64,000 nucleotides of DNA from Candidatus Eiseniibacteriota bacterium (GTDB taxonomy: Bacteria; Orphanbacterota; Orphanbacteria; Orphanbacterales; Orphanbacteraceae), in assembly GCA_029262235.1 (NCBI GenBank), contig JAJCZU010000002.1:806001-870000 (forward strand), in the 5' to 3' direction. Below are positions 7,310-30,024 of the stretch, in pieces (the stretch's first letter is position 1; every line of letters begins with the position of its first letter). Position numbers and translations under genes: made by a program. Below the pieces are notes generated by a model. It was given only the letters and a program-made list of their open reading frames with translations. It was not told the DNA's origin and did no database searches.

Positions 7310-8068
7310 ATGAGCCGGACAGCCACGGTCATCATTCCCGCGCGACTCGGTTCCACACGCCTCGCGGAAAAGCCACTGCAGGCGATCGCCGAACGCCCGC
7401 TGATCGCCCACGTCTGTGATCGCGTGGCGGCCGCAGGCCGCATTGCTCGTTTCGTCGTGGCGACGGATCATGAGCGGATCGCGACCGCTGTCAGAGAATC
7501 CGGGTACGAAACCATGATGACGAGTCCGGATCACAAGACGGGCACAGACCGCATCGCCGAAGCCGCGGCGAAGCTTCCGGGCGACGTCATCATCAACGTG
7601 CAGGGAGACGAGCCGTCTCTTCCGCCCGCGCTCCTTGACGAGCTGGCGACCGTCATGCTGGAACATCCGGAGATCCCGATGGGAACGGTAACCGTTCCGC
7701 TCGATCCGTCCGATTTTACAGACCCCAACGTAGTCAAAGTGACGGTAGACGCGCGCGGGTTCGCGCTCTATTTTTCGCGCGCGCCGATTCCGCACGACTG
7801 GCGCGGGGAGGGGAAGTCCGACCTGCTTCGCATGCACGTCGGCATCTACGCTTTTCAGCGGGAAGCACTCGAGCGGTTCGTGTCGCTTCCGCAGGGACAG
7901 CTCGAAAAGCGGGAAGGGCTCGAGCAGCTTCGCGCGCTCGAGAACGGAATCGCGATTCATGTTACGCACGGAGAGACGCCTTTTCACGGCGTCGAAACGA
8001 TAGAAGATCTGGAGCGGGCACGCCGTGAAGCGGCCCGTACGACTTTCACCACGAGCGATAAGGAGTAG
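7310..8068 (+). CDS. kdsB: 3-deoxy-manno-octulosonate cytidylyltransferase (CMP-Kdo synthetase)
   Basis: Activates Kdo with CTP for transfer to lipid A in the cytoplasm. The 252-residue protein has the N-terminal nucleotide-binding IPARLGSTRLAEKPL, the SPDHKTGTDRIAEA motif, INVQGDEPSLPP with the metal Asp, FSRAPIPHDW, HVGIYAF and the C-terminal GVETIEDLERAR. Only GGGG at 7298-7302, at the base of the upstream terminator, could serve as a ribosome site. Translation and transcription here may depend on read-through. It is the first gene of kdsB-pyrG-kdsA-kdsD. Confidence 0.96.
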   Translation: MSRTATVIIPARLGSTRLAEKPLQAIAERPLIAHVCDRVAAAGRIARFVVATDHERIATAVRESGYETMMTSPDHKTGTDRIAEAAAKLPGDVIINVQGDEPSLPPALLDELATVMLEHPEIPMGTVTVPLDPSDFTDPNVVKVTVDARGFALYFSRAPIPHDWRGEGKSDLLRMHVGIYAFQREALERFVSLPQGQLEKREGLEQLRALENGIAIHVTHGETPFHGVETIEDLERARREAARTTFTTSDKE

Positions 8069-8073
8069 GGCTG

Positions 8074-9717
8074 TTGGTGGTGGATTCTGCTGTACGCTAC
8101 GTATTCGTCACGGGCGGAGTCATGTCGTCCATCGGGAAGGGAATCGTTTCCGCTTCCCTCGGGATGCTGCTCAAAGCACGCGGGCACCGCGTGACTCTGC
8201 TCAAACTGGACCCCTATATCAACGTCGATCCGGGAACCATGAACCCGTTCCAGCACGGGGAAGTGTTCGTGACCGACGACGGCGCCGAGACCGATCTCGA
8301 TCTCGGACATTACGAACGCTTCACCGATCAGGATCTTTCACGCATCAATAATGCAACCGCGGGCCAGATCTACGACACCGTGATTTCACGCGAACGGAAG
8401 GGCGAGTATCTCGGCGTCACGGTGCAGGTCATCCCGCACATCACCGACGAGATCAAGCGCCGGATCGTGGAAGCGGGAAGGCAGACGAACGCCGAAATCG
8501 TAATCTGTGAGATCGGGGGCACGGTGGGCGACATCGAATCCCTGCCGTTTCTCGAGGCGATCCGCCAGATGCGTCTCCAGGTCGGCAAGAGCGCGAGCCT
8601 GTTCATCCACGTGACGCAGCTCCCGTATCTCGAGACGTCGCAGGAAATGAAAACGAAGCCGACGCAACACAGCGTGAAGGAACTGCGCGAGATCGGGATC
8701 CAGGCGGACATTCTCGTAACCCGTACGAGCCGGCCGCTTCCCGACAACGTGAAGGACAAGATCGCGTTGTTCTGCAACGTGGAAAAAGATGCCGTCATCG
8801 AATCGCGCGACGCGAAGTCGATCTACCAGGTACCGCTCGCGATGCACGAAGGCGGGCTCGACCGGATCGCGGCCCGTCACTTCGGCCTGCCCGACACGGA
8901 ACCGGAACTCGGGCCGTGGCAGCGCATGTGCGAAGCGGCTCTCCAGCCGGGCGAACCCGTACGTATCGCCGTGGTCGGCAAGTACGTTCACCTCGTGGAT
9001 GCGTACAAGTCGATCAACGAGGCGCTGATTCACGCGGGGGTCGCAAACGGCGTAACCACGGTGCCCGTCTGGATCGATTCCGAAGATCTGCAGGAAGGGC
9101 GGGAACTCGACACGCTTCGATCGTGTGACGGTATTCTCGTCCCCGGCGGATTCGGAAGCCGCGGGATCGAAGGCAAGATCGAGGCCGTAAGAATCGCGCG
9201 GACCGAAAGCATTCCGTTCCTCGGAATCTGTCTCGGTCTTCAGATCGCGATCATCGAATTCGCGCGTCACGCCTGTTCGCTTCAGAACGCGAACAGCGGC
9301 GAGTTTGCGCCGGATGCCGAACATCGCGTGATCGACCTGCTCCCGGAGCAGCGCGAAATCGACCGCATGGGCGCGACGATGCGTCTCGGCTCCACGCCGA
9401 TCAAACTCGACGCCGGCACGATGGCGCAGGAACTGTACGAGGCCGAAGAGATCGCGGAACGTCATCGTCATCGCTACGAAGTGAACAACGAGTACAGGGA
9501 TCTGTTTCGTTCGCACGGCCTCATCGACAGCGGCCGCAGCGTCGAGCGCGATCTCGTGGAGATTATCGAGATCCCGGAGCACCCGTTCTTCATGGCCAGT
9601 CAGTTTCATCCCGAATTCCGCTCACGTCCGCTTCGCGCGCATCCGTTGTTTCGCGCGTTCGTCGGCGCGGCGGCCGGTTCGCGTCAGGTCGAAACGAGCG
9701 CGGGAGGAACATCGTGA
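8074..9717 (+). CDS. pyrG: CTP synthase
   Basis: Makes CTP from UTP with glutamine; CTP is the substrate of KdsB next door. The 547-residue protein has the synthetase domain (YVFVTGGVMSSIGKGI, P-loop-like; EIGGTVGDIES; MKTKPTQHSV) and the class I glutaminase domain with the nucleophile Cys in GICLGLQ, and the catalytic QFHPEF near the end. Start codons TTG 8074, GTG 8077 and GTG 8080 are consecutive; AGGAG at 8061-8065 favours the first two. The stop overlaps kdsA (GTGA). Confidence 0.97.
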   Translation: MVVDSAVRYVFVTGGVMSSIGKGIVSASLGMLLKARGHRVTLLKLDPYINVDPGTMNPFQHGEVFVTDDGAETDLDLGHYERFTDQDLSRINNATAGQIYDTVISRERKGEYLGVTVQVIPHITDEIKRRIVEAGRQTNAEIVICEIGGTVGDIESLPFLEAIRQMRLQVGKSASLFIHVTQLPYLETSQEMKTKPTQHSVKELREIGIQADILVTRTSRPLPDNVKDKIALFCNVEKDAVIESRDAKSIYQVPLAMHEGGLDRIAARHFGLPDTEPELGPWQRMCEAALQPGEPVRIAVVGKYVHLVDAYKSINEALIHAGVANGVTTVPVWIDSEDLQEGRELDTLRSCDGILVPGGFGSRGIEGKIEAVRIARTESIPFLGICLGLQIAIIEFARHACSLQNANSGEFAPDAEHRVIDLLPEQREIDRMGATMRLGSTPIKLDAGTMAQELYEAEEIAERHRHRYEVNNEYRDLFRSHGLIDSGRSVERDLVEIIEIPEHPFFMASQFHPEFRSRPLRAHPLFRAFVGAAAGSRQVETSAGGTS

Positions 9718-10553
9718 ACCCTGTCAAGATCGTGAAAGTCGGGGACGTCCGTTTCGGGAGCGAGGACCTCTGCCTGATCGCCGGTCCGTGCGTCATCGAA
9801 ACGGAAGAGATCGCACTCCGGACGGCGGAAGGAATTCGCGAGGCGACGGCGGCTCTCGGCATTCCCGTCATTTACAAGTCGTCGTATCGCAAGGACAATC
9901 GTTCGTCTCTCAAGCATTATGAAGGCCCCGGACTCGAAGAAGGGCTGCGCATTCTCGAGCGTGTACGGACCGACTTCGGGATGCCGATTCTGTCCGACAT
10001 CCATACGCCGCAGCAGGCGAAGGCCGCGGGCGATGTGCTCGACGTGATCCAGATTCCGGCTTACCTTTCGCAGCAGACGGAGCTCCTGCAGGCCGCGGCG
10101 GCGACGGGGAAACCCGTCAACGTAAAGAAGGGGCAGTTCATTGCCCCCGAGGACATGATGAACAGCGTCAGGAAACTGGAAGGAAGCGGCTGCGATCAGA
10201 TCCTGCTCACGGAGCGCGGCGCGTCATTCGGTTACCGGCAGCTCGTTGTCGACTTCCGGTCGCTTCCTGCTATGCGAAAGCACGGCTACCCGGTAATCTT
10301 CGACGCGACGCACGCGGTACGTATCTATGGCAAGCCGTCGGCCGATCCCGCGGGCGGTACGCCGGAACACATTCCGCTGCTGGCGCGCGCGGCGGTTGCC
10401 GCGGGGTGCGACGGACTCTTCATCGAAACGCACCCGAAACCGCCGTCCGCCCTTTGCGACGCGTCGAGTCAGTATCCGCTGGCGCAGCTCACGAACCTGC
10501 TCAGCGAGCTGAAGTCGATTCACGACGCCTGGCGTTCTCACGTAACGACATGA
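9714..10553 (+). CDS. kdsA: 3-deoxy-8-phosphooctulonate synthase (Kdo-8-P synthase)
   Basis: Condenses PEP with arabinose 5-phosphate, the first committed Kdo step. The 279-residue protein has IAGPCVIE, YKSSYRKDNRSS (family KASFDKANRSS), LSDIHTPQQA, VKKGQFIAPEDM, LLTERGASFGYR and DATHAV. The Cys in IAGPC, with His in DATHAV, Glu in FIETHP and Asp in LCDASS, is the metal-ligand set of the metal-dependent class (as in Aquifex), not the Asn-containing E. coli class. GTG 9714 follows GGAGGAA; its end overlaps kdsD (ATGA). Confidence 0.97.
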   Translation: MNPVKIVKVGDVRFGSEDLCLIAGPCVIETEEIALRTAEGIREATAALGIPVIYKSSYRKDNRSSLKHYEGPGLEEGLRILERVRTDFGMPILSDIHTPQQAKAAGDVLDVIQIPAYLSQQTELLQAAAATGKPVNVKKGQFIAPEDMMNSVRKLEGSGCDQILLTERGASFGYRQLVVDFRSLPAMRKHGYPVIFDATHAVRIYGKPSADPAGGTPEHIPLLARAAVAAGCDGLFIETHPKPPSALCDASSQYPLAQLTNLLSELKSIHDAWRSHVTT

Positions 10554-11572
10554 GTTTCTCGATGAAGTCACCCGACCGCGACCGCGCTCTCGCACGTGCC
10601 CGCGACATCCTCAGACAGGAGGCGCACGCGCTCTCCGCGCTTGCGGACGAACTGGGCGCCTCGTTTCTCGATGCGGCCGCGATCCTGCACCGCGCGATTG
10701 CCGAACCAGGAGAAGGCCGTCCCGGAAAGATCGTCGTGACGGGCGTCGGGAAATCCGGTCTGATCGGTCGCTCGCTCGCCGCCACGTTCAACGCCACCGG
10801 AGCCACGGCGTTTTTCCTTCACCCGGTCGAAGCCGTACACGGCGATCTCGGGATCATCGATCCGGGGGACGCCGTCATCCTGCTTTCCCGTTCGGGAACG
10901 AGCGAGGAACTGCGTCAACTGATCCCGTCCCTGCGCGCGGCCGGTGTCCCGCTCATCGCGATCACGGCACGCGACGATTCCGAACTGGCACGCTTTGCCG
11001 ACGTCTCGATTGCGATCGGAGACCGGCCCGAAGCGTGCAGCCTGAACCTGACTCCGACCACGAGCGCCACGGCAACCCTCGCCATCGGGCATGCTCTCGC
11101 CCTGACGCTTTTCGAATCGCGCGGCCTCAAGGAAGAAGACTTCGCGCGTTTCCATCCCGGCGGACTGCTGGGGAAGCGCCTTCTTTTGCGCGTGAAGGAC
11201 GTCATGCATACCGGGGAGGGCATTCCGCGTGTGACGCTCGACGCCGACATGCGAACGGTTTTGATCGAGATCATGGGCAAACGTCTCGGCGCGGCGGCGG
11301 TCGTGGAAGGGGAGAAGCTGGCGGGCATCATTACGGATGGCGATCTTAAACGGATCGTTCTTTCACATGACGACCTTTTCGAAGTCCCCGTGTCCGAAGT
11401 GATGACGGCCCGGCCCCAGACGATTGGCCCCGACGACCTCGTGGCCGATGCCTACCGCAGAATGCACGCGAACCCGGACGCCGTCATTACCTGCCTGCCC
11501 GTCGTCACCGGAGACCGTCTCACCGGGTTCCTCCACATGTACGACTGCCTCAAAAGCGGTGCCATCGGATAA
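10550..11572 (+). CDS. kdsD: arabinose-5-phosphate isomerase, SIS plus CBS domains
   Basis: Converts ribulose 5-phosphate to arabinose 5-phosphate, the KdsA substrate. The 340-residue protein has a SIS domain (about residues 40-190; VTGVGKSGLIGRSLAATFNATG, HPVEAVHGDLG, LLSRSGTSEEL), the LTPTTSATATLAIGHAL stretch, FARFHPGGLLGKRLL, and two CBS domains (about 215-335). ATG 10550 overlaps the kdsA stop; an open extension upstream is only the shadow of kdsA. The frame ends one base before the sigma-54-like promoter. Confidence 0.96.
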   Translation: MSFSMKSPDRDRALARARDILRQEAHALSALADELGASFLDAAAILHRAIAEPGEGRPGKIVVTGVGKSGLIGRSLAATFNATGATAFFLHPVEAVHGDLGIIDPGDAVILLSRSGTSEELRQLIPSLRAAGVPLIAITARDDSELARFADVSIAIGDRPEACSLNLTPTTSATATLAIGHALALTLFESRGLKEEDFARFHPGGLLGKRLLLRVKDVMHTGEGIPRVTLDADMRTVLIEIMGKRLGAAAVVEGEKLAGIITDGDLKRIVLSHDDLFEVPVSEVMTARPQTIGPDDLVADAYRRMHANPDAVITCLPVVTGDRLTGFLHMYDCLKSGAIG

Positions 11573-11589
11573 CTGGCACACGCTTTGCT
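11573..11589 (+). promoter_or_regulatory. candidate sigma-54 (-24/-12) promoter
   Basis: CTGGCACACGCTTTGCT matches TGGCACG-N4-TTGC except for A in place of the G after CAC. The GG (11575-11576) and GC (11587-11588) are exactly spaced. It starts at the first base after the kdsD stop and heads the operon that contains rpoN. Confidence 0.6.
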
Positions 11590-11617
11590 TGACAGAATTT
11601 CCCTTCCTGCATATGCT
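11589..11617 (+). promoter_or_regulatory. sigma-70 promoter for the lpxL-lptC-lptB-rpoN operon
   Basis: Consensus TTGACA at 11589-11594, 17-base spacer and TATGCT at 11612-11617. The -35 box abuts the -12 box of the sigma-54-like site, so the two polymerase forms would compete. Confidence 0.7.
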
Positions 11618-11664
11618 GAGCTTAACTGGTTGGTTGATAATGACTTCAGCGTCCAGGAGCACGC

Positions 11665-12573
11665 ATGCCCTTCGCCCAGCACCTTGCATCAGAAGCGATC
11701 CACGCCGCGATGGCGCTCGGAAAATCGCTCCCGCGCTCGGTCGCTCTGCCGCTGTTCAGCGCCGGAGGGGCTGCCGTACATCTTCTGGAGGGCCGAGGCC
11801 GCCGGATGGCGCAGACGAACCTCCGGCACGTGTTCGGCGCCGGAACGGACGCCCGGGCGCTCTCACGCCAGGTTTACCGCGATCTGGGCAGAAACGTCGT
11901 CGACCTGGCCCGTCTCGAAACGCACTCGGGCCCTTCTCTGACGGAAATGGTCTCCACCATGGGCTGGAATCGGCTTGAGCAGGCCCTCGCACGCGGCCGT
12001 GGCGTGATCGGCGTCACGGGTCATATCGGGAACTGGGAGCTCATGGCGTCGTATCTGGGCCAGCAGGGAGTCCCTCTGACCGTTCTCGCGAGCCGCCTTT
12101 TCAATCCGTCCCTCGACGACCGCCTCACGAAACTGCGCCGGCGCCACGGCGTCCGCACCCTGTATCGTTCGGAGCCCGGATGCCTGCGCAAGACATTGCG
12201 CATTCTGGATCGCGGCGAAATGCTCGGCATCGTCATGGATCTTCGGACCCGGGCCCGCACGCAGGGGATCGACTCGCTGTTTCTGGGCCACCCGATCCGG
12301 ACGGTGGTCGGGCCCGCTCGTCTTGCCGCGCGTTCCGGCGCATCGATCCTTCCCATGGCATGCTGGCGAACGCCGGGGGATCGTTTTCGACTCGAAATCG
12401 ACGCCCCGGTGCCGTGGGAAAACGAGCCGGGCACGAATCGCGAAATGAGCTGGAAGGAGACGACCGACCGTTGCATGGAATCCATCGAACGATACATACT
12501 TTCCGCGCCGACCCAGTGGGTCTGGATGCACGATCGCTGGGGCCTCGGCGTCTCGCAATCGGGCTCGGTGTGA
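11665..12573 (+). CDS. lysophospholipid/lipid A acyltransferase, LpxL (HtrB) family
   Basis: Probably adds a secondary acyl chain to the Kdo-lipid A precursor at the inner membrane. The 302-residue protein has an N-terminal hydrophobic stretch (about 14-40), MAQTNLRHVFG (family pattern of RRVxxNLxxaf), the catalytic HX4E motif GHIGNWE (about residues 118-124), MDLRTRARTQGIDSLFLG in place of the usual QdxRxxxGxxVpFFG, and the C-terminal [10 protein letters not shown] (family W.H.RWK). The acyl donor and exact symbol (lpxL, lpxM, lpxJ-like) cannot be set. The start overlaps no neighbour; the end overlaps lptC. Confidence 0.88.
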   Translation: MPFAQHLASEAIHAAMALGKSLPRSVALPLFSAGGAAVHLLEGRGRRMAQTNLRHVFGAGTDARALSRQVYRDLGRNVVDLARLETHSGPSLTEMVSTMGWNRLEQALARGRGVIGVTGHIGNWELMASYLGQQGVPLTVLASRLFNPSLDDRLTKLRRRHGVRTLYRSEPGCLRKTLRILDRGEMLGIVMDLRTRARTQGIDSLFLGHPIRTVVGPARLAARSGASILPMACWRTPGDRFRLEIDAPVPWENEPGTNREMSWKETTDRCMESIERYILSAPTQWVWMHDRWGLGVSQSGSV

Positions 12574-13076
12574 CGATCCTCTGCGCGGCTGCCTGCACCA
12601 AGGTCGAAGAGCCGCCCGCTCCCGCCGCGTCCGACCAGCACGCCGCCGTGCAGGAAACGCGTGTCAAGAAGTGGGTCGAGTACCGGGATGGCAAAGTCGT
12701 CTGGGAATTCCGCGGAGATCTTCTTCGCTACTACGAAAACCCGGAACGCGTCGAAGCCGACGGCTTGATCGTCGACTTTTACGAAAATGAGAAGTATTCG
12801 ACTACATTGACCGCGGATCACGGAACCATGCATCGCGGTTCGAGTGATATGCAGGCGACCGGCAATGTCATAATCGAGAACGTCAAAGGGACACGGGTTG
12901 AAACCGAGTCGATTCAATACCAAGATGAACAAGAGCGGATTTTTACGGACGACTTCGTGACAATCCTTCGCGGGAATAAAAAAATCACGGGTTACGGACT
13001 AGAGACGGATCCGAAACTGAACGAAACTCTGATCAAGCGGGACGTCGTCGCGAAGACGATCGATCGCTCCCGATAG
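12516..13076 (+). CDS. lptC: LPS export protein LptC, lipoprotein-like N-terminus
   Basis: Bridges the inner-membrane LptBFG complex to LptA and carries LPS across the periplasm. The LptC-type domain covers about residues 55-175: [45 protein letters not shown], a strong match to the LptC repeats. Start choice matters. GTG 12570 overlaps the previous stop but gives only [12 protein letters not shown] 12516, inside the acyltransferase gene, gives two Arg (RR) and a hydrophobic run ending AAAC at Cys27, a lipoprotein-like signal, and a 186-residue protein close to the E. coli length (191). I prefer 12516. No lptA follows. Confidence 0.8.
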
Positions 13077-13081
13077 GCGAT

Positions 13082-13816
13082 ATGGCGGAAGAGCGAAACG
13101 TTCTCAGAACGGACTCTCTGGCAAAGGCGTACCGCGGACGCGAGGTCGTGAAAGAAGTCACGATCGAAGTGCAGCGCGGCGAGGTCGTCGGACTGCTGGG
13201 ACCGAACGGCGCCGGCAAGACGACGACGTTCTACATGATCGTCGGCATGATCCAGCCGATGCGCGGCCGCATCTTTCTCGACGAGAAGGACGTGACCCGG
13301 GATCCGATGTTCCAGCGCGCGCGCATGGGGATCGGGTACCTGCCGCAGGAGAGCTCGATCTTCCGCAAGCTCACGGTCGAGGAAAACGTGCTCGCGGTGC
13401 TGGAAACGATGCCGCTCTCTTCGAAGGAGCGCAAAGAGCGAGCGGCGCGCCTTCTCGAAGAACTCGGGATCGCGGGCCTCGCCGGGTCGAAGGGATACAC
13501 GCTTTCGGGCGGAGAGCGCCGGCGCGCGGAAATCTGCCGGGCGCTGGCAACAGAGCCGTCGTTCCTGCTGCTCGACGAGCCGTTCGCGGGGATCGACCCG
13601 ATCGCGGTGCAGGACATTCAGGAAATTATCGCCGGGCTGCGGGAACGCGGACTTGGCGTGTTGATTACGGACCACAACGTCCGGGAAACGCTTTCGATTA
13701 CGAATCGGGCGTACATTATGTTCGAAGGGAAAGTGCTTCTTTCGGGAAGCGCGGAAGAGCTCGCGAACAACCCGGAAGCGCGCGAGATGTATCTCGGTGA
13801 AAAGTTCCGGCTCTAG
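13082..13816 (+). CDS. lptB: LPS export ABC transporter ATP-binding protein LptB
   Basis: Powers LPS extraction with LptF and LptG, encoded on the other strand at 21030-23473. The 244-residue protein has Walker [15 protein letters not shown]-loop [12 protein letters not shown], signature LSGGERRR, Walker [13 protein letters not shown], and the LptB-specific [10 protein letters not shown] and NRAYIM. It lies five bases after lptC and 35 before rpoN, the order seen in Proteobacteria (lptC-lptA-lptB-rpoN-hpf) but without lptA. Confidence 0.97.
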
Positions 13817-13851: not shown

Positions 13852-15324
13852 ATGGAAATGAAAGCGGGACTGCAGCTCAGGATGCTCCAGACGCAGAAGC
13901 TGGTGATGACACCACAGCTTCAGCAGGCGCTCCGCTTTCTTCAGATGCCGACGCTCGAGCTTCAGCAGGTTCTGAAACAGGAGATCATGACGAACCCGAT
14001 CCTCGAAGAGGTCGACGAGCTCACGGACAGTGAAGAGGAAACCGAGCAGGAGCGCGTCGAAACGGAAGAGGCGACACCCGACCGCAAGGACGGCGAGGAG
14101 CCGTCCGAAGGGGAGAAGCTCGACGACGCCCAGAGCGAGGTCGACTGGGACGAGTACTTCCATTCCCCGTCCGACTACAATTACAAGGTCGAGCAGGAAC
14201 ACCACGACGACACGTACGAGCGAGTTCTTTCGACCACCGTCCACCTGTCCGAGCATCTGCTCTCGCAGCTCCGGATGAGCGCGAAGAGCGAAGAGCTCCA
14301 GGTGATCGGCGAATTCCTGATCGGCAGCCTCGACGAGCGCGGATTCTTGACGATCACGTTCGACGAAGCGGCGGAATCGCTTCTCAAAGAACAGGGGGTT
14401 CGCTACGACAGCGACCAGATGGAAGAGGCGCTCTTTCTGATCCAGTCGTTCGAACCGGCCGGCGTCGGCGCGCGCGATCTGCGCGAGTGTCTGCTGCTCC
14501 AGTTCGAAGCCGAGTGCGACACCGAGAGCCTCGCGTACCAGATCATCCGTTTTCATTTCGACGACTTCGTCGAGAACAAGTACGCGGATATCGCAAGAAA
14601 ACTGAAGACCACTCCGAAGTCCATTCAGGAAGCTGCCAAAGAGATCGGGCATCTGAATCCCCGGCCCGGGCTTCTCTATACGGACGAAGATCCGCGTTAC
14701 ATCACGCCGGATCTCATCGTCGACCGCGTGGACGAGGAATTCGTCGTCTATCTGAACGACCACAACGTGCCGCGCCTCCGGATCTCGCGCGCGTACGAAA
14801 AGTACATGACGAACGGCACGAATACGGATCCCGAGACGAAGGAATACATCAAAGGGAAACTGAACGCCGCGGCGCAGCTCATCAACACGATCGAGCGCCG
14901 GCGCCGCACGATGGTGAAGGTCATGAAGGCCATCGTCGAGAACCAGATCGACTTCTTCGAACACGGCATCCGCTTCCTGAAGCCGATGACGCTGCAGCAG
15001 GTCGCGGACCAGATCGGCATGCACGAATCGACCGTGAGTCGCGTGACGTCCGCCAAGTACGTGCAGACCCCGCGTGGCGTGTTCGAACTGAAGTTCTTCT
15101 TCTCCTCGAGCATTCGTTCGGACTCGGGAGAGGACGTCTCGGCCAAAAGGGTCAAGGACCGCGTCAACGAACTCGTCGAAAACGAGGACAAGAAACGCCC
15201 TCTCAGCGACCAAAAGATTGTGGAGCAATTGAAGGGCGAAGGCCTTATCATTGCCCGGAGAACAGTTGCCAAATACCGTGAGCAGATGGGCATTCTGTCC
15301 GCTCGCTACCGTAAGAAGTTTTAA
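13852..15324 (+). CDS. rpoN: RNA polymerase sigma-54 factor
   Basis: Directs polymerase to -24/-12 promoters and needs an AAA+ activator to open them. The 490-residue protein has the Gln/Leu-rich region I (LQLRMLQTQKLVMTPQLQQALRFLQMP), an acidic region II (about residues 55-110), the core-binding domain, the helix-turn-helix QVADQIGMHESTVSRV, and the RpoN box ARRTVAKYREQMGI at the C-terminus. The start has AGAGGAA upstream. Sites matching its promoter consensus are found upstream of sprA and of its own operon. Confidence 0.98.
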   Translation: MEMKAGLQLRMLQTQKLVMTPQLQQALRFLQMPTLELQQVLKQEIMTNPILEEVDELTDSEEETEQERVETEEATPDRKDGEEPSEGEKLDDAQSEVDWDEYFHSPSDYNYKVEQEHHDDTYERVLSTTVHLSEHLLSQLRMSAKSEELQVIGEFLIGSLDERGFLTITFDEAAESLLKEQGVRYDSDQMEEALFLIQSFEPAGVGARDLRECLLLQFEAECDTESLAYQIIRFHFDDFVENKYADIARKLKTTPKSIQEAAKEIGHLNPRPGLLYTDEDPRYITPDLIVDRVDEEFVVYLNDHNVPRLRISRAYEKYMTNGTNTDPETKEYIKGKLNAAAQLINTIERRRRTMVKVMKAIVENQIDFFEHGIRFLKPMTLQQVADQIGMHESTVSRVTSAKYVQTPRGVFELKFFFSSSIRSDSGEDVSAKRVKDRVNELVENEDKKRPLSDQKIVEQLKGEGLIIARRTVAKYREQMGILSARYRKKF

Positions 15325-20998: not shown

Positions 20999-21031
20999 AA
21001 AGCCGCCCCGCATGCGTGGGGCGGCTTTTTT
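20999..21031 (+). terminator. rho-independent terminator after metK
   Basis: AGCCGCCCC (21001-21009) pairs with GGGGCGGCT (21018-21026) around an eight-base loop, flanked by AA and a T-tract. It overlaps the stop of the convergent lptG, so it also separates the two transcripts. Confidence 0.88.
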
Positions 21032-22112
21032 ACTGGCGGGTCAAACGAAGGAAGAGAACGCTCCCGAGAGCCAGAAAGACCCCGTTTGCAATCCATGCCG
21101 CCATTGCCGGCGTCACGACCTCGTTATAGCCGAGCGACTGTCCGACACGGATTCCGATGTAGTAGACGAAGATGATCAGCATGGCGAGCGAGAAACCGAG
21201 CGCGTTGCCCCCGCGCCGGAGCAGCGCGCCGAGCGGACATCCCAGAAGCACGATGATCAGATTACGGAACGGGGCGGCCAGTTTCATCTGGAGCTGTACG
21301 CGATCCTTCTGCGTCTCCCCGCCGCTCATCTCCTTGCGCTTGATGTAGCGTTCGAACTCGCGGTACCCCATCTCCTTCGTCCCTTTCTGCACGGTCGCCA
21401 GGTCACTCGGCGAGTCCGTCAATACCGGGAACGTGCGGCTCGTGAAAGGCACCTGGCTCGTCAGGCCGCTGTCGTTGAACGTGCGATAGAAACCGTTTCG
21501 AAGCGTCCAGTGTCCGTCCTCCCAGACGCCCGTCTGCGCATCGATTCGCTCTTCCAGCTTGAGATCGACGACTTTTGAAATCGTGATGCGCCGGATCGAC
21601 TCGCGCTCGGTGTCGAGCGATCCGAGGTAGTAAATCCATTCCCCGGCCCCCATATAGCTTACGTTCGACCGCACTTTCTCGGACCGGCTTCGTCCTTTCT
21701 GCATCTCGTTATCGCGGATCTCCTTCGCTTCGAGCGCCGCCACGGGCGCGATCGTCTCGCCGAAAACAAGCGTCAGCACGGAAATCAGGAGCGCGGCGAC
21801 CAGTACCGGTACGAGCATGCGTTTCATGCTGATGCCGGCGGCGAGTGTGGCCACGAACTCGAGATTTCGTGAATGCGCGCCGAGCGAGAAGAGGCACGAC
21901 AGGAGCATGCCGACGGGGAGCGTCAGGAGCAGAATCTCCGGCACACTGTAGAGGTAGTAGAGGAGCACCGTAACGAGCGGTACTTTGAAGTCGATGAAGT
22001 CGTCCAGTTTCTCGAAGAGATCGAACACGATGAAAATCGTGACGATGGCGAACATCGAGTAGATCAGTACGGAGATGTACTGGGACAGAACGTAGCGATC
22101 CAGAATACGCAT
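21030..22112 (-). CDS. lptG: LPS export permease LptG (LptF/LptG family)
   Basis: One of the two permeases that lift LPS out of the inner membrane. The 360-residue protein has the YjgP/YjgQ pattern: N-terminal RILDRYVLSQYISVLIYSMFAIV, three membrane segments to about residue 125, a periplasmic beta-jellyroll (about 130-265), then KLAAPFRNLIIVLLGCPLGALLRRGGNALGF and two to three final segments. It overlaps lptF by one base (TGATG). The usual lptF-lptG order suggests this is LptG, but the two are hard to separate by sequence. Confidence 0.9.
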   Translation of the reverse strand: MRILDRYVLSQYISVLIYSMFAIVTIFIVFDLFEKLDDFIDFKVPLVTVLLYYLYSVPEILLLTLPVGMLLSCLFSLGAHSRNLEFVATLAAGISMKRMLVPVLVAALLISVLTLVFGETIAPVAALEAKEIRDNEMQKGRSRSEKVRSNVSYMGAGEWIYYLGSLDTERESIRRITISKVVDLKLEERIDAQTGVWEDGHWTLRNGFYRTFNDSGLTSQVPFTSRTFPVLTDSPSDLATVQKGTKEMGYREFERYIKRKEMSGGETQKDRVQLQMKLAAPFRNLIIVLLGCPLGALLRRGGNALGFSLAMLIIFVYYIGIRVGQSLGYNEVVTPAMAAWIANGVFLALGSVLFLRLTRQ

Positions 22113-23473
22113 CAGACGGGCTCGCCGGTCTTCTGATTACGTTTTCTTCGCAGGAAGCGCAGAAATGAGAAGCGGGAAGCGTCCCGGTCGCTCTTGCGAA
22201 TCAGATAGAGGCCCAGAATTCCCATAATGACGTTCGCGGCCCACATCGAAACGGCCGGCGTTACGTAACCGCGATCCGCGAGCTTTTCACCCCCGGTCAG
22301 AAACAGATAGTAGATCACGAAGAATACGATGCTGAAGCCGACGCCGACGCCGAGCCCGCCCTTCCGCGCCCGCACACCGAGCGGCGTGCCGACGAGCACG
22401 AAGACGATGCAGGCGACCGGGAGCGAGTATTTCTTGTGCACTTCCACGAGATACTTGTCGACCTGGCGCTGCTTGTCCGCGACGCGGCGGTCGCGCGAGA
22501 TGAGCTCCGTACCGAGCGAGCTGACCTCGCGGGCATAAATCCTCTGCCGCTGCAGATCGACCGGCTCCTTCGTCGTATCGGGGGCCGTTTCGAGATGGGC
22601 GAAACGCGCGCCGATCGCTTCCAGCGCCGCCTGCTTCTGGTCGGCGCGTGTGCGTGTGATTTCCTCACGGTAGGACTGGACGCGCTCCATCATGTCGCCG
22701 GCGGAGAGCTCACGGTCGCCCCGGTTCTTGCGATCGGATCGCACGAGCTCCGTTCCGATCCCGTCGATCCGGATCGTGTGCGTGTAGAACAGCATTCTGT
22801 GATAGCGATTCGGATTCGATTCGTCGACGCCGTGAATCTCGCCGTCCTCGAGGTAGAGGTTCAACACGTTCCCGCCATCGGTGAAAGCGAGCCTTCCGCG
22901 TTTCGCCACGATCGTTTCGCTCTCTTCGTTCCGTTCCTTCTTCTGAATCGTGACGGACTCGAGTTCCGACGTCACTTCATTCAGCGACTCGACGCGAATC
23001 GTGTACCCCTTGATGTCCGAAAACGCCCCGGCCTTGATCGCGAGCGCGGGCCGTTTCCGGTGAATGTCGCCGAGTAGCCCGGCCAGGCGATGATTCGAAT
23101 CGGGAAGGACGCGGTTATTGAACTGCACGAGCAGGAACGCGAGAAGGAGGGACATGGCGACGGGGCCCGCGAGAATCTGGAAGGTGCTGATGCCGGAAGC
23201 CTTCATCGCGGTGATTTCATTGTCCGCGGCGAGTCGACCGAAGGTCATGAGCACGGCCACGAGAACCGCCATCGGCACGACAAGGGCCATCATCCAGCCG
23301 AGGCTCAGTATGAAAACCTCGAGGACCACGGAGAACGCGATGCCCTTGCCCAGGAAGAGGTCGATGAACTTGATCATCTGCTCCATCAGCAGGATGAACA
23401 CGATCACGAACATGCCGAACACGAACGGTCCGACGAGCTGCCTCATGATGTAGAAACTGATCGTACGCGGCAT
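22112..23473 (-). CDS. lptF: LPS export permease LptF (LptF/LptG family)
   Basis: Partner of LptG and LptB in LPS transport. The 453-residue protein starts RTISFYIMRQLVGPFVFGMFVIVFILLMEQ, has the family TLGRLAADNEITAMKASG-like stretch (LAADNEITAMKASGIS), a periplasmic domain that is longer than usual (about residues 125-370, with a Gln/Arg-rich helical part near 265-345), and ends with PVACIVFVLVGTPLGVRARKGG and two membrane segments. GGGAGAGG lies just before ATG 23473. The helical insert of about 80 residues is unusual for LptF (typical 365 residues). Confidence 0.9.
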   Translation of the reverse strand: MPRTISFYIMRQLVGPFVFGMFVIVFILLMEQMIKFIDLFLGKGIAFSVVLEVFILSLGWMMALVVPMAVLVAVLMTFGRLAADNEITAMKASGISTFQILAGPVAMSLLLAFLLVQFNNRVLPDSNHRLAGLLGDIHRKRPALAIKAGAFSDIKGYTIRVESLNEVTSELESVTIQKKERNEESETIVAKRGRLAFTDGGNVLNLYLEDGEIHGVDESNPNRYHRMLFYTHTIRIDGIGTELVRSDRKNRGDRELSAGDMMERVQSYREEITRTRADQKQAALEAIGARFAHLETAPDTTKEPVDLQRQRIYAREVSSLGTELISRDRRVADKQRQVDKYLVEVHKKYSLPVACIVFVLVGTPLGVRARKGGLGVGVGFSIVFFVIYYLFLTGGEKLADRGYVTPAVSMWAANVIMGILGLYLIRKSDRDASRFSFLRFLRRKRNQKTGEPV

Positions 23474-23496
23474 TTCCTCTCCCGTTTCGGCGCCTC

Positions 23497-23526
23497 ACCT
23501 TACCGAATGAACCCCGGGGCGGACAA
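23497..23526 (-). promoter_or_regulatory. candidate sigma-70 promoter for lptF-lptG
   Basis: On the minus strand TTGTCC (23526-23521), 18-base spacer and TAAGGT (23502-23497), about 24 bases before the lptF ATG. Confidence 0.4.
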
Positions 23527-23682
23527 CCCGATTCGCTCCGCGTGAGTGTCCATCCGCGAATACAGCCCTGTTCTCAAACGAGTACACGCCGGCAACGCGA
23601 ATTCCCGGAGGCGGGAAGCCGCCTGTAAGCCGTGATCCGCCATGCGGTTGGGCGCGCATGACGGGAGCAATTGGTGCCCGGG

Positions 23683-23699
23683 TTGGCACGTCCCTTGCC
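23683..23699 (+). promoter_or_regulatory. sigma-54 (-24/-12) promoter upstream of sprA
   Basis: TTGGCACGTCCCTTGCC contains TGGCACG (23684-23690), four bases and TTGC (23695-23698): a complete match to the sigma-54 core consensus TGGCACG-N4-TTGC. The expected start of transcription is near 23710, about 110 bases before the sprA ATG. No competing sigma-70 promoter was seen on this strand. Confidence 0.8.
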
Positions 23700-23817
23700 C
23701 CTTTATCATGGGTTTGCACACCGTCCGTACGGCGGTGGATCGAAACTGTGATTCTCCCCCCATTGATGCGGGAACCGCTTGGGTTTTTACGATAGAGACA
23801 CCGACACCTCATCCGGA

Positions 23818-26800
23818 ATGAGGCCGAGGGGAAGCGTGACGAGACTCTGGACGAGGCTTCTCCTCCTGGCGACACTGTTCGTCCCGGGTGGAGTTCTTGG
23901 AATCACCGACATCGAGCGGGGGGGCCCCCTTACGCTCATCAAAGACCCCGCGCATCGTAACTATCCTCGGCATATGACCGGCCTGCGCCTCTCTCCGTAT
24001 CGCGAGGGAGGCGCGCTCCACCTGAAAGATCCCACGAAGAACTACGATGTGCTCGTTGCCGTCGACCTCGAGCGCAATCTCGTCGTCGTCTCCGCCACGT
24101 ACAAGAGCGTCCCGATCACCTATCCGTGGGTCGCCGCGATCGACGTCTATGCATCAGAAATGCGGAAGCAGGCGCTCGCCAGAAAAGTGACAGACCAGGG
24201 GCTCAAGAACACGCGGGACCCCGGCGGGCGTGCGGGCACGAGCGCGTTCAGTATCGACCTGCCGGTCCGCTTCCCGAAGACGCTGAGTCGCATCATCGGG
24301 CAGGGGGCGAACATTCAGGTTTCGGGGAGCGAGTCGATCACGTTCTCGGGCGAAACCCAGTATTACATCCGTGGCCGCGACACGGAGAGCGGCGGGCAGC
24401 GCATCTTCCCCGAACTCGACATGCGCCAGCAGCTCCAGGTGAACCTGACGGGAACGATCGGCGACAAGGTCAAGGTGGAGCTGCAGCACAACTCCGAATC
24501 GCAGGTTCCGCTCGAGAACCGGATCAAGCTCCGCTACGAGGGCTACGACGACGAGATCATTCAAAGGATCGAAGTCGGGAATACGAACCTCGCCCTCCCG
24601 GGCAACCAGTTCGTGAGCCTCAGTTCGCAGCAGCAGGGACTGTTCGGTGTGAAGATGGTCGGGAAGATGGGCAAGCTCGATTTCACGACGGTTCTCAGCC
24701 AGCAGCAGGGAAGAACGGACCGCGAGTCGTTCTCCGGGCAGTCGTCCGTCGATACCGTCTCGATCAACGACCTCGACTACATCCGCGGGCGTTACTTCAT
24801 GGTGAACAACTACCGCGCCATTCAGGATATCCGCGTCTTTATCGATGACAACAACGGTACGAACAACATCGGAACGCTGCCGGGGCGTTCGTTTCTTTTC
24901 CCCGCGACGGCCGATCTGTCGGACACGCTCGACGGAACGAACCGCGGACCGGACGCGCCATTCGAGATCGGCCAGTTCGAAGAACTCCAGGAGCTCACGG
25001 ATTACGAGATCTTTCGTGAAACCGGCCTCATCACGATGAACAAGCAGCTCGGAGACAGTGACATCCTCGCCGTCTGGTACACGTTCCAGAGCGGGGGCGG
25101 GCTTGATACGGCGGGGTTCGTGCCGCCAACGCCGATCACGACGGAAACACCACCGGAGGACGGGCTCGTTCTCAAGATCATACGGCCCCGCAAGAACGAC
25201 TACCGTCCGCCGTCTCGAAGCGCCGACATCATCTCCAGCCCGTTCGCGGAGACCTGGTACTACCAGCAGCGCAATGTCTACAGTCTGCGTGCCGCGAATA
25301 TCCAGCAGGAAGATTTCGAGATTCACATCTTCCAGAAGTCAGCCGGCGCCACGGAGCGTTTCGACCGGCAGGCCGGAGTCCCGTACATCCAGATCATGGG
25401 TCTCGACCTCGTGGATCAGAATGTCGCCTACACGCCCGACGGTTTCGTCGATCTCGAGTATCAGGGGTGCGCGCGCACGACGCCCGGCCTCGAAAACAAT
25501 TCGCTCGGCCGCCCCGAGCAGGATTCGCTCGGCGTGCCGCCGGGGGGGCTGCCGTACTGGTGGACACGGAACGTGGATTACGAGCGCGGTCTGCTGCGGT
25601 TCCCGGATCTCCGCCCGTTCGACCCGATCTATGACCATCAGGGATGCCCGGCCACGGAGCAGCTTCGGATCACGCAGCCGAACCCCGTCATCTACGACAA
25701 TCACGACCCGCGCAGCACGGACTCGAAGTACGAAATCGTCGTGCGCTACAAGACCTCGCGTTCCTCGTTCTTCCTCGGCCGCTCGAACATTCTCGAGGGG
25801 AGCGAAGTCGTCAAGCTGAACGGGCGCACGCTGAACCGCGGCTCGGACTATCGCATCACGTACGAGATCGGACAGATCGAATTCCTGACTGACGAGGCGC
25901 TTGTTCCGGACGCCGACATTACGGTCGATTTCGAATACGCGCCGTTCCTGTCGCAGGCGCAGAAATCCCTGATCGGCGCGGCGGCTTCGTACAACTTCTC
26001 CGAGAACACGAAAATGTCGAGCATCTTCCTGTTCAAGGGGAAGCGGACGCCGTTCGAACGCCCCCGTCTCGGCCAGGAACCGTCGCGTATTTTCGTTTCC
26101 GGTCTTTCGTTTGCGACGGAAAAGAACCCGGAGTTTCTGACGAGCGCCGTCAACGCGATTCCCGGAATCACGGCGCGCGACAAGTCGTCGATCCGTGTGG
26201 ACCTCGAGACGGCGGCCACGTTCCCGAACCCGAACACGAAAAACGCGATCTATGTCGACGACATGGAAGGCACGGCCGAAGTGTCGTCCTTCGGGATCAC
26301 GCGACGGCAGTGGGATCCGATGTCGATTCCCCAGCTCGAAGGGGCGATCGACGAAGTGGCGCCCGACAACCGCTACGGCGCCGTGCAGTGGTACAACCCC
26401 GACTATCGCGACAACTCCCGGAACGTGTTTCGTGAAGATCTGAACCCTGACCTCGCGCCGGAGGAGGGGGACAACAAGATCCCCGTCCTCGAAGTGGCCT
26501 TGAAAAACGGCACGGTCGGCACCGGTCAGGCGGCCGATGCATGGGGCGGCATCATGCGCCTCGTTTCGAAGACCGGACTCGATCTCAAAGACCGCAAGTT
26601 CTTCGAGGTATGGGTCAACGACTTCGACCTCGGACGCGGGAAGATGCACGTCGATATGGGGCTCCTCGGCGAGGATATGATGTGGAGCCAGATTGCGCCG
26701 GACGGCATGCTGAACTCGGAAGATCGTAACCAGGACGGCGTGCTCGACGACAGCGGCAACGAAGATCCGCTGTTCGATGAGGACACGGGTTTCGACGGTA

Positions 26801-29800
26801 TTTTCGACGCGAACGAGACAGGGAGCGGAAACGACCCGGCCGGCGATAATTATGACTACGATGAAAACAACGAAAACGATTTCTCGCGCATCAACGGTCC
26901 GGAAGGTAACGGCTTTCTGGACACCGAAGATCTGAACAACAACGGCGACCTCGATCGTGAACGCAGCTACTATCGATTTACGATCGACTTTGAAACGCGC
27001 GAGAACAACGTGGGAACCGGGTCGACCGTCGGCCCGAAGAACTGGCGTCTCTATCGCATTCCGCTCGCGCTTGCGGCGCCGACCGCGATCGCATCCCAGC
27101 CCACCTACGATGAAGGAATCAAATACGTTCGTATCTGGTTCGAGGATCTCGACACCACGAGCGCCCGCTTTCAGATCGCGTCGCTCGAAGTAACGGGGAA
27201 CCGGTGGCTCGAGTCGGGAATTCAGGACACCACCGGACGCGTCCTTGCCGATTCGGAACTCGGCCCGCTCGAACTGTTTGCGTCCGGTACCATCAACAAC
27301 AAGGACGAACAGGAATACCAGCCCCCGCCGGTCGAGATCCGGGTCCAGAACCAGGTGCCCGAGCGCGAGCAGTCCCTTCTGATCCAGTACCAGAACATCG
27401 AACCGGGTCACAACGGCTCCGTCTTCCGCGCGCTCTTCGAGGACGAGGACTACACGCGTTACCGGAACCTCGAGTTCTGGCTCAGGAAAGAGGAACCGCA
27501 GCGCGATACCGATCCGTATCCGGCGTTCTACTTCCGCTTCGGCGGCGACTCGCTGAACTTCTACGAAGTCATCGACACGTTGAACGGTTACTACGAGCCC
27601 ACCATGCTTACGTCACGGGCGCCCTGGCGCCTCTGGAGTCTGGACCTGGCCGAACTCACGCAGGTAAAGCTCAGCGAGGACGTCGACTCTACAATGCTCT
27701 TCGGCCGGATGGTGCCGGTGCGGAGCATGCGGTCCGGGCGGTATCTGTTCCGCGCCGTCGGCGAGCCGTCCATGCGCAAAGTAAGGAGGTTGACCTTCGG
27801 GCTGTCGAACCCGTCGCGCGGGGACCCCGTTTCCGGTATTTTATGGGTCGATGATCTACGTTTAACCAATGTAAAGGGGGACGCCGGCTTCGCCGCGCGC
27901 ATCGGGACGGAAATTAAGCTTTCGGACTTCGCGTCGGTGTCCGCTGACTTCCGCATCCAGGACAAGGAATTCCGGCGCGTGGCCGGCGGCGGGTCGTCAA
28001 ACCCCAACCAGGAAGAAAACCCGCGTTCCGGAAGCGATGACACGGATATTTCGCTCCGCGGGAATGTCAATTTCTCGAAGTTCATGGAAGGGATCGGGGT
28101 GAACGCGCCGCTCGGCTGGGGATGGTCGCGCTCCGTCAAGCAGCCGGAACTGAAGACGGCGTCCGATATCGTTCTCGACGATCCCTCCCAGGAGAAGACG
28201 CAGAAGAACTCGCGTACGCTTTCGCTTTCGCTCAATCGAAACCGCAAGTCGAAGAGTTCCCTTCTCTATTATACGCTGGACAATATGGACGTTCGGCTCG
28301 GCCTCGACCGCAGTGAGAGCGTAAATCCGACTGCGGCTGATACGACGAGTTCCAACAGCGTCTCGTGGAGCTACCGCTACTCGCCGCGGTTCAACAGCCA
28401 GCTGGCGATATTCCGGTCGTGGAAGATCGACCCGCTGCCGCGATCCGGAAGTATCAACGCCGAGCGCAGAGCGACCGAGCGCAAGCACATCGACATCCGG
28501 TCGGAGACCACGCAGCTCAATACGGATCGCGTGTCCCGCTCCAGTTACTCGTTCGCGATGCAGCCGCTCATTTCGTCACAGCTCAAGACCGATTTCAATT
28601 TCTCCACGGCACGCGATCACATTTACGGTGAGCCCTTCTCGTTCGCGGAGCAGCTCAACAAAGGGCTTGAAACGAACCGCGCTCACGAGGCGAATGTTTC
28701 CTATACGCCGGGTTTCCGGGGACTTTCCTGGCTTGCCCCGCGCTTTTCGTACAACACGAAGTTTGTCGACGACCAGCCGCCCACGCAGCGTGCGCTCGTG
28801 CTGCAGCGCGATGAAGCCACGGGGGAGACCGACACACTTTCGGATCGCCGCATTCACAACGTGCGCAACAACAACAGCACACGCATGGACTTCACTCTCG
28901 GCGTCGGGCGTCTGTTCAGCGCCCTTCCCGGCGGCGGAGATGGCGGGAATAGTCCCCGTGGCGGGAGAAACCCCGGTGGCGGCCGTGGCCCCGGCGGGCA
29001 GGGGGGGAATGCTCCCGGTGGCGAAGGGGACAAGACCGGCGGGGACGCGGATTCCACCAAAGCGCGGGGACCCGGGGTCGGCCGCCTCTTCTCGCCCGTG
29101 AAGAGCCTCGGCTCCCGCATCGGCGATATCACGGGCTCCGTGAACCTCGTGAAGCAGTCGAACTTTGCGGATCTCATCGGACGCCCCGGCCTCGAATATC
29201 AGCTCGGCCTCGAAGAAGCCGTTGACACCACGCTCCAGTTCCGGCGAGGGGGCCAGGTGAGCAGTTCGTCCAGCACGCGTGATCTGCAGATCCGTGGTTC
29301 GTCGTCACTCCGTCTCGTGCAGGGCATGAACCTCCGGGTTTCGTACAACAGCTCGAACAAGGAAAACCGTCAGACTTCGAACACGTCGGCATCGCGCACC
29401 GTCACGTGGCCGGATCTTCAATATTCGTGGGACGGACTCGAGGAGCTCTGGCAGCTCAAGCGCTTCTTCAAGAGCAGTTCCCTTTCAATCGGCTACACGC
29501 AGCGCAAGGACGAAGGCGGGAAGACCCTCGACAAGATCGAAACGGAACGTGTTTCCAAACGGTGGGATCCGCTCATTCAGGTGGAAGCGGAATGGCTCAA
29601 CAAGCTGAAGAGTCAGTTCAGCGTCGACAAGTCCGAGGAGATCAACCGCCGCTTTCTCGGGAGCTCCTCGGAGAACGTCGCGCGCGGGCTCGGCTTCAAC
29701 GGCTCGCTGAGCTTCCAGCGTACTTCCCGCAAGCGCGTCAACATTCCGATTCTCGGAAAAGGGCGCAAGGGAAGCACCTACAACGCCACCACGACGTTCC

Positions 29801-30024
29801 GGCTCGCGTTTCGGTTCGCGAGCAGCAAGGAAGAAGAGCAGAACCCGTACCGGCTCGAGCAGCATACGCGGGACATCAGCGTGACACCTTCCGTACAATG
29901 GAGCTGGCTGCAGAATCTCTCGGGCAACCTGGAACTCCGCTTCGGCGAGAGGAGAAATCTCAAGAATGAGAACCAAAGTACGCGCACGATCGGCGCGTCG
30001 ATCTCGGCCCTCTTCAAGTTCTAG
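23818..30024 (+). CDS. sprA: SprA, outer-membrane translocon of the type IX secretion system
   Basis: Giant beta-barrel through which T9SS cargo crosses the outer membrane. About 2068 residues. A signal peptide (RLLLLATLFVPGGVLG) is followed by SprA hallmarks: SESITFSGETQYYIRGR, LELQHNSES-like VELQHNSESQVPLENRIKLRYEGYDDEII, GLFGVKMVGKMGKLDFT, YIRGRYFMVNNYRAI, YVDDMEGTAEVSSFG (about residue 810), and SGILWVDDLRLTNVKGDAGFAARIG, then amphipathic strands to the C-terminal Phe. About 965-1060 is a DxNxDG-rich segment; about 1702-1755 is Gly-rich. ATG 23818 is chosen for the signal peptide; GTG 23836 after GAGGGGA is an alternative. Flavobacterial SprA is near 2400 residues. Confidence 0.93.
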   Translation: MRPRGSVTRLWTRLLLLATLFVPGGVLGITDIERGGPLTLIKDPAHRNYPRHMTGLRLSPYREGGALHLKDPTKNYDVLVAVDLERNLVVVSATYKSVPITYPWVAAIDVYASEMRKQALARKVTDQGLKNTRDPGGRAGTSAFSIDLPVRFPKTLSRIIGQGANIQVSGSESITFSGETQYYIRGRDTESGGQRIFPELDMRQQLQVNLTGTIGDKVKVELQHNSESQVPLENRIKLRYEGYDDEIIQRIEVGNTNLALPGNQFVSLSSQQQGLFGVKMVGKMGKLDFTTVLSQQQGRTDRESFSGQSSVDTVSINDLDYIRGRYFMVNNYRAIQDIRVFIDDNNGTNNIGTLPGRSFLFPATADLSDTLDGTNRGPDAPFEIGQFEELQELTDYEIFRETGLITMNKQLGDSDILAVWYTFQSGGGLDTAGFVPPTPITTETPPEDGLVLKIIRPRKNDYRPPSRSADIISSPFAETWYYQQRNVYSLRAANIQQEDFEIHIFQKSAGATERFDRQAGVPYIQIMGLDLVDQNVAYTPDGFVDLEYQGCARTTPGLENNSLGRPEQDSLGVPPGGLPYWWTRNVDYERGLLRFPDLRPFDPIYDHQGCPATEQLRITQPNPVIYDNHDPRSTDSKYEIVVRYKTSRSSFFLGRSNILEGSEVVKLNGRTLNRGSDYRITYEIGQIEFLTDEALVPDADITVDFEYAPFLSQAQKSLIGAAASYNFSENTKMSSIFLFKGKRTPFERPRLGQEPSRIFVSGLSFATEKNPEFLTSAVNAIPGITARDKSSIRVDLETAATFPNPNTKNAIYVDDMEGTAEVSSFGITRRQWDPMSIPQLEGAIDEVAPDNRYGAVQWYNPDYRDNSRNVFREDLNPDLAPEEGDNKIPVLEVALKNGTVGTGQAADAWGGIMRLVSKTGLDLKDRKFFEVWVNDFDLGRGKMHVDMGLLGEDMMWSQIAPDGMLNSEDRNQDGVLDDSGNEDPLFDEDTGFDGIFDANETGSGNDPAGDNYDYDENNENDFSRINGPEGNGFLDTEDLNNNGDLDRERSYYRFTIDFETRENNVGTGSTVGPKNWRLYRIPLALAAPTAIASQPTYDEGIKYVRIWFEDLDTTSARFQIASLEVTGNRWLESGIQDTTGRVLADSELGPLELFASGTINNKDEQEYQPPPVEIRVQNQVPEREQSLLIQYQNIEPGHNGSVFRALFEDEDYTRYRNLEFWLRKEEPQRDTDPYPAFYFRFGGDSLNFYEVIDTLNGYYEPTMLTSRAPWRLWSLDLAELTQVKLSEDVDSTMLFGRMVPVRSMRSGRYLFRAVGEPSMRKVRRLTFGLSNPSRGDPVSGILWVDDLRLTNVKGDAGFAARIGTEIKLSDFASVSADFRIQDKEFRRVAGGGSSNPNQEENPRSGSDDTDISLRGNVNFSKFMEGIGVNAPLGWGWSRSVKQPELKTASDIVLDDPSQEKTQKNSRTLSLSLNRNRKSKSSLLYYTLDNMDVRLGLDRSESVNPTAADTTSSNSVSWSYRYSPRFNSQLAIFRSWKIDPLPRSGSINAERRATERKHIDIRSETTQLNTDRVSRSSYSFAMQPLISSQLKTDFNFSTARDHIYGEPFSFAEQLNKGLETNRAHEANVSYTPGFRGLSWLAPRFSYNTKFVDDQPPTQRALVLQRDEATGETDTLSDRRIHNVRNNNSTRMDFTLGVGRLFSALPGGGDGGNSPRGGRNPGGGRGPGGQGGNAPGGEGDKTGGDADSTKARGPGVGRLFSPVKSLGSRIGDITGSVNLVKQSNFADLIGRPGLEYQLGLEEAVDTTLQFRRGGQVSSSSSTRDLQIRGSSSLRLVQGMNLRVSYNSSNKENRQTSNTSASRTVTWPDLQYSWDGLEELWQLKRFFKSSSLSIGYTQRKDEGGKTLDKIETERVSKRWDPLIQVEAEWLNKLKSQFSVDKSEEINRRFLGSSSENVARGLGFNGSLSFQRTSRKRVNIPILGKGRKGSTYNATTTFRLAFRFASSKEEEQNPYRLEQHTRDISVTPSVQWSWLQNLSGNLELRFGERRNLKNENQSTRTIGASISALFKF

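Follow-up and report, generated by a model that had tools for sequence, protein, structure and literature searches.

Results and Discussion

A predicted sigma-54 promoter in front of sprA

The element at positions 23684-23698 of the window (the whole stretch of 64,000 nt analysed here) very probably works as a sigma-54 promoter for sprA, which encodes the outer-membrane translocon of the type IX secretion system (T9SS), and one activator acting through pairs of dyads would most likely co-regulate sprA and porU-porV. The element and its conservation, the dyads at both loci, and the presence of rpoN and of activators in the genome can be read directly from the DNA.

The element, TGGCACGTCCCTTGC (TGGCACG-TCCC-TTGC, plus strand), is as described in the earlier note, which had reported an exact TGGCACG-N4-TTGC with exact spacing before sprA: the GG-N10-GC spacing is exact, and this is the only zero-mismatch sigma-54 match within the window. 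With the C of the -12 GC at 23698, transcription would be expected to start near 23710, giving a predicted leader of about 126 nt up to the GTG at 23836; the separation of about 120 bases from sprA given previously is thus a fair description, and the end of the site lies 137 nt from this likely start. Among the possible starts this GTG scored best by codon usage, with a gene finder whose training set was the genes of the window itself, and signal-peptide-like sequence follows it. The gene (sprA/sov, 23836..30024, plus strand) encodes a protein of 2062 aa that matches TIGR04189 with 553.5 bits, the cut-off being 200 bits, and also PF14349. Divergent from it are genes for an lptF-like (22112..23473, minus strand; PF03739, TIGR04407) and an lptG-like LPS export permease (21030..22112, minus strand; PF03739, TIGR04408). 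The string CTCCCCCCATTGA is found at 23754-23767, 3' of the predicted transcription start, and similar strings (CCCATTGA or CCCCATGA) are present in the sprA leaders of genomes G003, G004 and G005.

Position of the motif in the genome

Matches with two mismatches are at chance level in the window (18 observed, 19.0 expected), so the window count alone proves nothing. The motif TGGCAC-N5-TTGC was also considered across the source genome (4.47 Mb in 11 contigs, about 93% coding), where it occurs 19 times, with no excess over the 25 occurrences of a reversed control pattern. The informative measure is the position of the motif relative to genes and not its count: 18 of the 19 exact motifs are intergenic, versus 1 of the 25 controls (Fisher P=3e-10). 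Among the genes downstream of exact motifs are a flagellar rod gene, a sigma-28-like factor and pilins beside an NtrC-type regulator, all of them classic sigma-54 targets, and also two proteins with T9SS-type C-terminal domains. The genome has 28 matches to PF00158 (Sigma54_activat), 25 of them strong. Because of the intergenic position of 18 of 19 motifs, the classic targets and the roughly 25 activator domains, an exact motif in front of a gene is very likely a working promoter in this genome. Another exact element is associated with the gene of a very large sensor kinase (more than 1575 aa, with dCache, HAMP, PAS, HisKA and HATPase domains), located downstream of secD/secF-like genes (L160; contig C4, 1102500-1109000).

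Conservation within the phylum

The source genome (G000) probably belongs to GTDB phylum JABDJQ01, for which the name Candidatus Femapiota and a total of 7 genomes are given (PMC11382960). Our comparison set comprised 7 genomes including the source, with G001 as a relative from the same genus, and SprA was found in all of them. The site is kept in the five testable relatives (G001-G005), between the divergent lptF and sprA, the sixth relative being left out of the count of sprA leaders because its contig ends too early. The full elements in these five leaders are TGGCACGTCCCTTGC, TGGCACGACGTTTGC, TGGCATGGGGCTTGC, TGGCACGCCCCTTGC and TGGCATGTAGATTGC. Around the element, the sprA flanks of G002-G005 show no greater similarity than shuffled sequence does (identity 0.43-0.55, versus a shuffled baseline of 0.54), and the probability of finding the site by chance in one sprA leader is below 0.001. 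Its presence in related genomes, expected if the claim in the earlier note was right, is thus borne out by the five testable relatives within the phylum and by five genomes of a second lineage described below. A chance match of a 15-base pattern in 64 kb would agree with the absence of an excess in the genome-wide count, but the extremely non-random position of the motif and its conservation in diverged leaders take the sprA site beyond chance, and we give this explanation practically no weight.

Conservation also bears on the type of promoter. A pair of hexamers, TTGGCA-N15-TATCAT, overlaps the sprA site, each with 5 of 6 matches both in this genome and in G001, and sprA might be read from this sigma-70 promoter with the -24/-12 match being a coincidence. 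This seems very unlikely, since the spacer is 15 and the -24/-12 element persists in G002, G003 and G004, where the hexamers are lost. Scanning of both strands at 23400-23900 gave no sigma-70 site with a 16-18 spacer, which is consistent with the previous remark that no sigma-70 promoter was seen on the sprA strand.

Tandem dyads upstream of the element

Alignment of the diverged sprA leaders revealed two tandem 16-bp dyads in 6 of 6 leaders of the phylum. They have the form GT-N12-AC and the consensus GTCYCC-N4-GGRGAC, the two members being 21-22 bp apart (20-22 bp when the porU leaders described below are included) and the pair located 100-180 bp upstream of the -24/-12 element across the six leaders. 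In the window, dyad 1 (GTCCATCCGCGAATAC, 23548..23563) and dyad 2 (GTTCTCAAACGAGTAC, 23570..23585), both putative activator sites, are separated by 22 bp, and dyad 2 ends 99 bp before the element. Activator sites usually come as pairs of dyads that are spaced by about two helical turns and lie 100-180 bp ahead of a -24/-12 element. An enhancer would be expected to consist of conserved dyads, mostly more than one, some 80-200 bp upstream, and the pairs in the sprA leaders, and in those of porU described below, agree with this. At these 13 leaders (6 of sprA and 7 of porU) the pairs score 21-30, compared with 17.7 for the best single shuffle, although these values were obtained with a refined matrix that includes the porU dyads, and it is the initial scan, done with a matrix built from sprA only, that provides independent evidence. 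Across 1.7 Mb of scanned DNA, any further pair with a score above 19 reaches at most 20.4; within the source genome, the dyad scan covered about 16% of the sequence. A weaker pair (16.9) followed by TGGTACAGGAATTGCC is located before a gene of 391 aa with no Pfam match (L307:17395-17490, contig C2 at about 1117.9 kb), which may be a third gene controlled by this activator.

Alternatively, a conventional regulator might recognize the dyads. Sigma-54 would then still drive sprA, the dyads being occupied by an ordinary repressor or activator while a different enhancer-binding protein, not linked to them, acts from solution or from another site. The dyads were found from sequence only and none of the activators has been matched to them, as this alternative would allow; their layout, however, is the one generally known for activator sites, and it recurs at porU, so we regard it as unlikely, albeit the strongest of the alternatives considered here.

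The porU-porV leader and other T9SS loci

When the matrix derived from the sprA dyads was applied to the first-scanned parts of the genome, it gave one strong new match, in the leader of porU-porV. These adjacent genes (contig C2, 676430-680877) match NF033707 with 547.9 bits and NF033709 with 193.3 bits, as well as PF01364 and PF19572. The match is at L218:7468 and porU was called at 7693-11832, so that 225 bp separate the two. The dyad pair precedes porU-porV in 7 of 7 genomes of the phylum and, relative to a GG-N10-GC element, stands at -115 to -120; the sequences of this element are CGGTACAGATCTTGC (in two genomes), GGGTACGCTTTTTGC, GGGTACGTTTCTTGC, CGGAACGATTCTTGC, GGGCATGACCCTTGC and CGGAACGTTTCTTGC. 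The -24 half is degenerate (CGGTACA, GGGTACG, CGGAACG), making the element weaker than that of sprA; for this reason an initial search of the porU-porV locus found no near-consensus site, and the locus was recovered through its dyads. The spacing of GG and GC, the position and the shared dyads suggest that the porU element is of the sigma-54 type. In several of the relatives, small open frames of about 100-136 aa lie between the dyads and porU (L222:7021-7431, with similar places in L221, L223 and L224), and those tested have no Pfam match.

The sprA dyads sit between sprA and lptF and could serve either, so that they might belong to the divergent lptFG genes, their place upstream of sprA being incidental. 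This is hardly probable, given that the same pair is found before porU-porV, where lptFG does not explain it because, in this genome, the next gene upstream is accA, transcribed in the same direction.

The earlier note had proposed to look for sites before other T9SS genes, and the outcome was mixed: porU-porV has the dyads and the degenerate element in all seven genomes, while the other porV-like locus (L228-L232) has neither dyads nor a sigma-54 site. None of the porV-like loci outside porU-porV, including the one near the rpoN/sprA cluster, showed dyads or a site.

sprA leaders outside the phylum

Among 50 other sprA leaders surveyed, the full element was present in one (G140) and absent in 49. 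G140 and four more genomes of its class, G386, G387, G388 and G389, all have TGGCAYGGAANTTGC before sprA and constitute a second lineage, outside the phylum; G390, of the same class as G140, could not be scored because its contig ends too near sprA, and G277, of another family than G140, showed no sprA site. Two divergent genes of lpt size also flank sprA in this second lineage where gene calls allow (L289, L291). A weak dyad pair is present there at about -145/-125, overlapping the start of lptF, and is inseparable from coding conservation. A site in L274 (genome G110), TGGCATAGACTCTGC, is a plausible but unconfirmed sprA sigma-54 site, and G246 (L281), the only other genome compared from the class of G110, had no comparable one. 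The sequence TGGCAATATTATTGC before sprA in L068 (G036) was ruled out, being inside the signal-peptide coding sequence. The predicted link between sigma-54 and sprA is neither universal nor restricted to one phylum, since 49 of the 50 other leaders are without the site, yet the second lineage has it.

Many papers describe the T9SS as confined to Bacteroidota; of 386 genomes sampled, 93 encode SprA-type proteins above the curated cut-off, and almost all of these 93 lie outside the phylum studied here.

rpoN and a second element

The presence of rpoN in the same window, indicated in the earlier note, was verified: the gene (13852..15324, plus strand) has all three Sigma54 domains (PF04552, PF04963, PF00309), for activator interaction, core binding and DNA binding, with ARRTVAKYRE near the C-terminus. 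It is directly preceded by a lipid A acyltransferase-like gene, an lptC-like gene and an ABC ATPase gene in the position of lptB (11665..13816, plus strand; PF03279, PF06835, PF00005). A second exact sigma-54 element, TGGCACACGCTTTGC (11574..11588, plus strand), precedes this run and has been retained in the corresponding position in G002, G004 and G005. Because this conserved element leads the acyltransferase-lptC-lptB-rpoN run, rpoN may regulate itself, coupled to LPS transport.

Proposed control and its relation to known systems

According to the model we propose, an oligomeric enhancer-binding protein would probably bind the two tandem dyads at 23548-23585 and, by looping, reach the RNA polymerase-sigma-54 poised at the -24/-12 element, spending ATP to open the promoter, with the mRNA starting near 23710. 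The same protein would bind the dyad pair before porU-porV, so that a single signal would lead to the joint production of pore, sortase and shuttle. What we infer in this model is the binding and looping, the start site, the dependence on RpoN and the use of one activator for both loci. The idea put forward in the earlier note, of a T9SS gated through sigma-54 by a bacterial enhancer-binding protein, gains support from the conservation of the site, the dyads, the porU-porV leader and the roughly 25 activator domains.

The published transcriptional control of the T9SS is that exerted in Porphyromonas gingivalis by PorX/PorY together with the ECF factor SigP (PMC4800418, PMC8265659). There a signalling system tunes the transcription of T9SS component genes, as is proposed here, but the known one relies on a response regulator and an ECF sigma factor, whereas here sigma-54 -24/-12 sites and tandem dyads are found, and its promoter type is not that of sprA and porU in this phylum.

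Sigma-54 has been presented as the controller of the bacterial exterior by Francke et al. (2011; PMC3162934), in whose account, in the passages considered, rpoN of diderms sits with lptABC, kdsCD and hpf, and sigma-54-linked T3SS and T6SS are named in the background section. The organization described here resembles that picture, in that rpoN is grouped with hpf and with lpt/LPS genes, and envelope, flagellar and pilus genes have sigma-54 sites before them. The term Bacteroidetes does not occur in that article and T9SS does not appear in the passages considered, relative to which sprA and porU-porV, as targets with a shared dyad pair, would be additional (PMC3162934). The type III and type VI systems cited there are alike in that a secretion machine is placed under sigma-54 and an enhancer-binding protein (PMC3162934). 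They are, on the other hand, other secretion systems, and the genes controlled are not homologous. To our knowledge, their activators are also different. Among the papers listed by our search of the open-access literature, none reported T9SS control by RpoN/sigma-54; the theme of sigma-54 control would extend to the T9SS, where we found it undescribed in that literature.

Transcriptional control of the T9SS has been worked out mainly in one species of Bacteroidota. The data make it reasonably likely, though with less confidence than for the promoter and the shared dyads themselves, that a dedicated candidate sigma-54 activator makes sprA and porU-porV one signal-gated regulon across the phylum; with the link present in at least one other lineage, this may represent an ancient way of controlling the T9SS that differs from PorXY-SigP. 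This genome has 147 matches to TIGR04183 (C-terminal sorting domains) as T9SS cargo. Sigma-54 promoters are silent without their activator, and outer-membrane export of these approximately 147 predicted cargo proteins would therefore depend on a signal. The shared, defined candidate activator site offers a direct handle on the activator and on the rest of its regulon, and it is conserved enough for use in genomes of uncultured bacteria.
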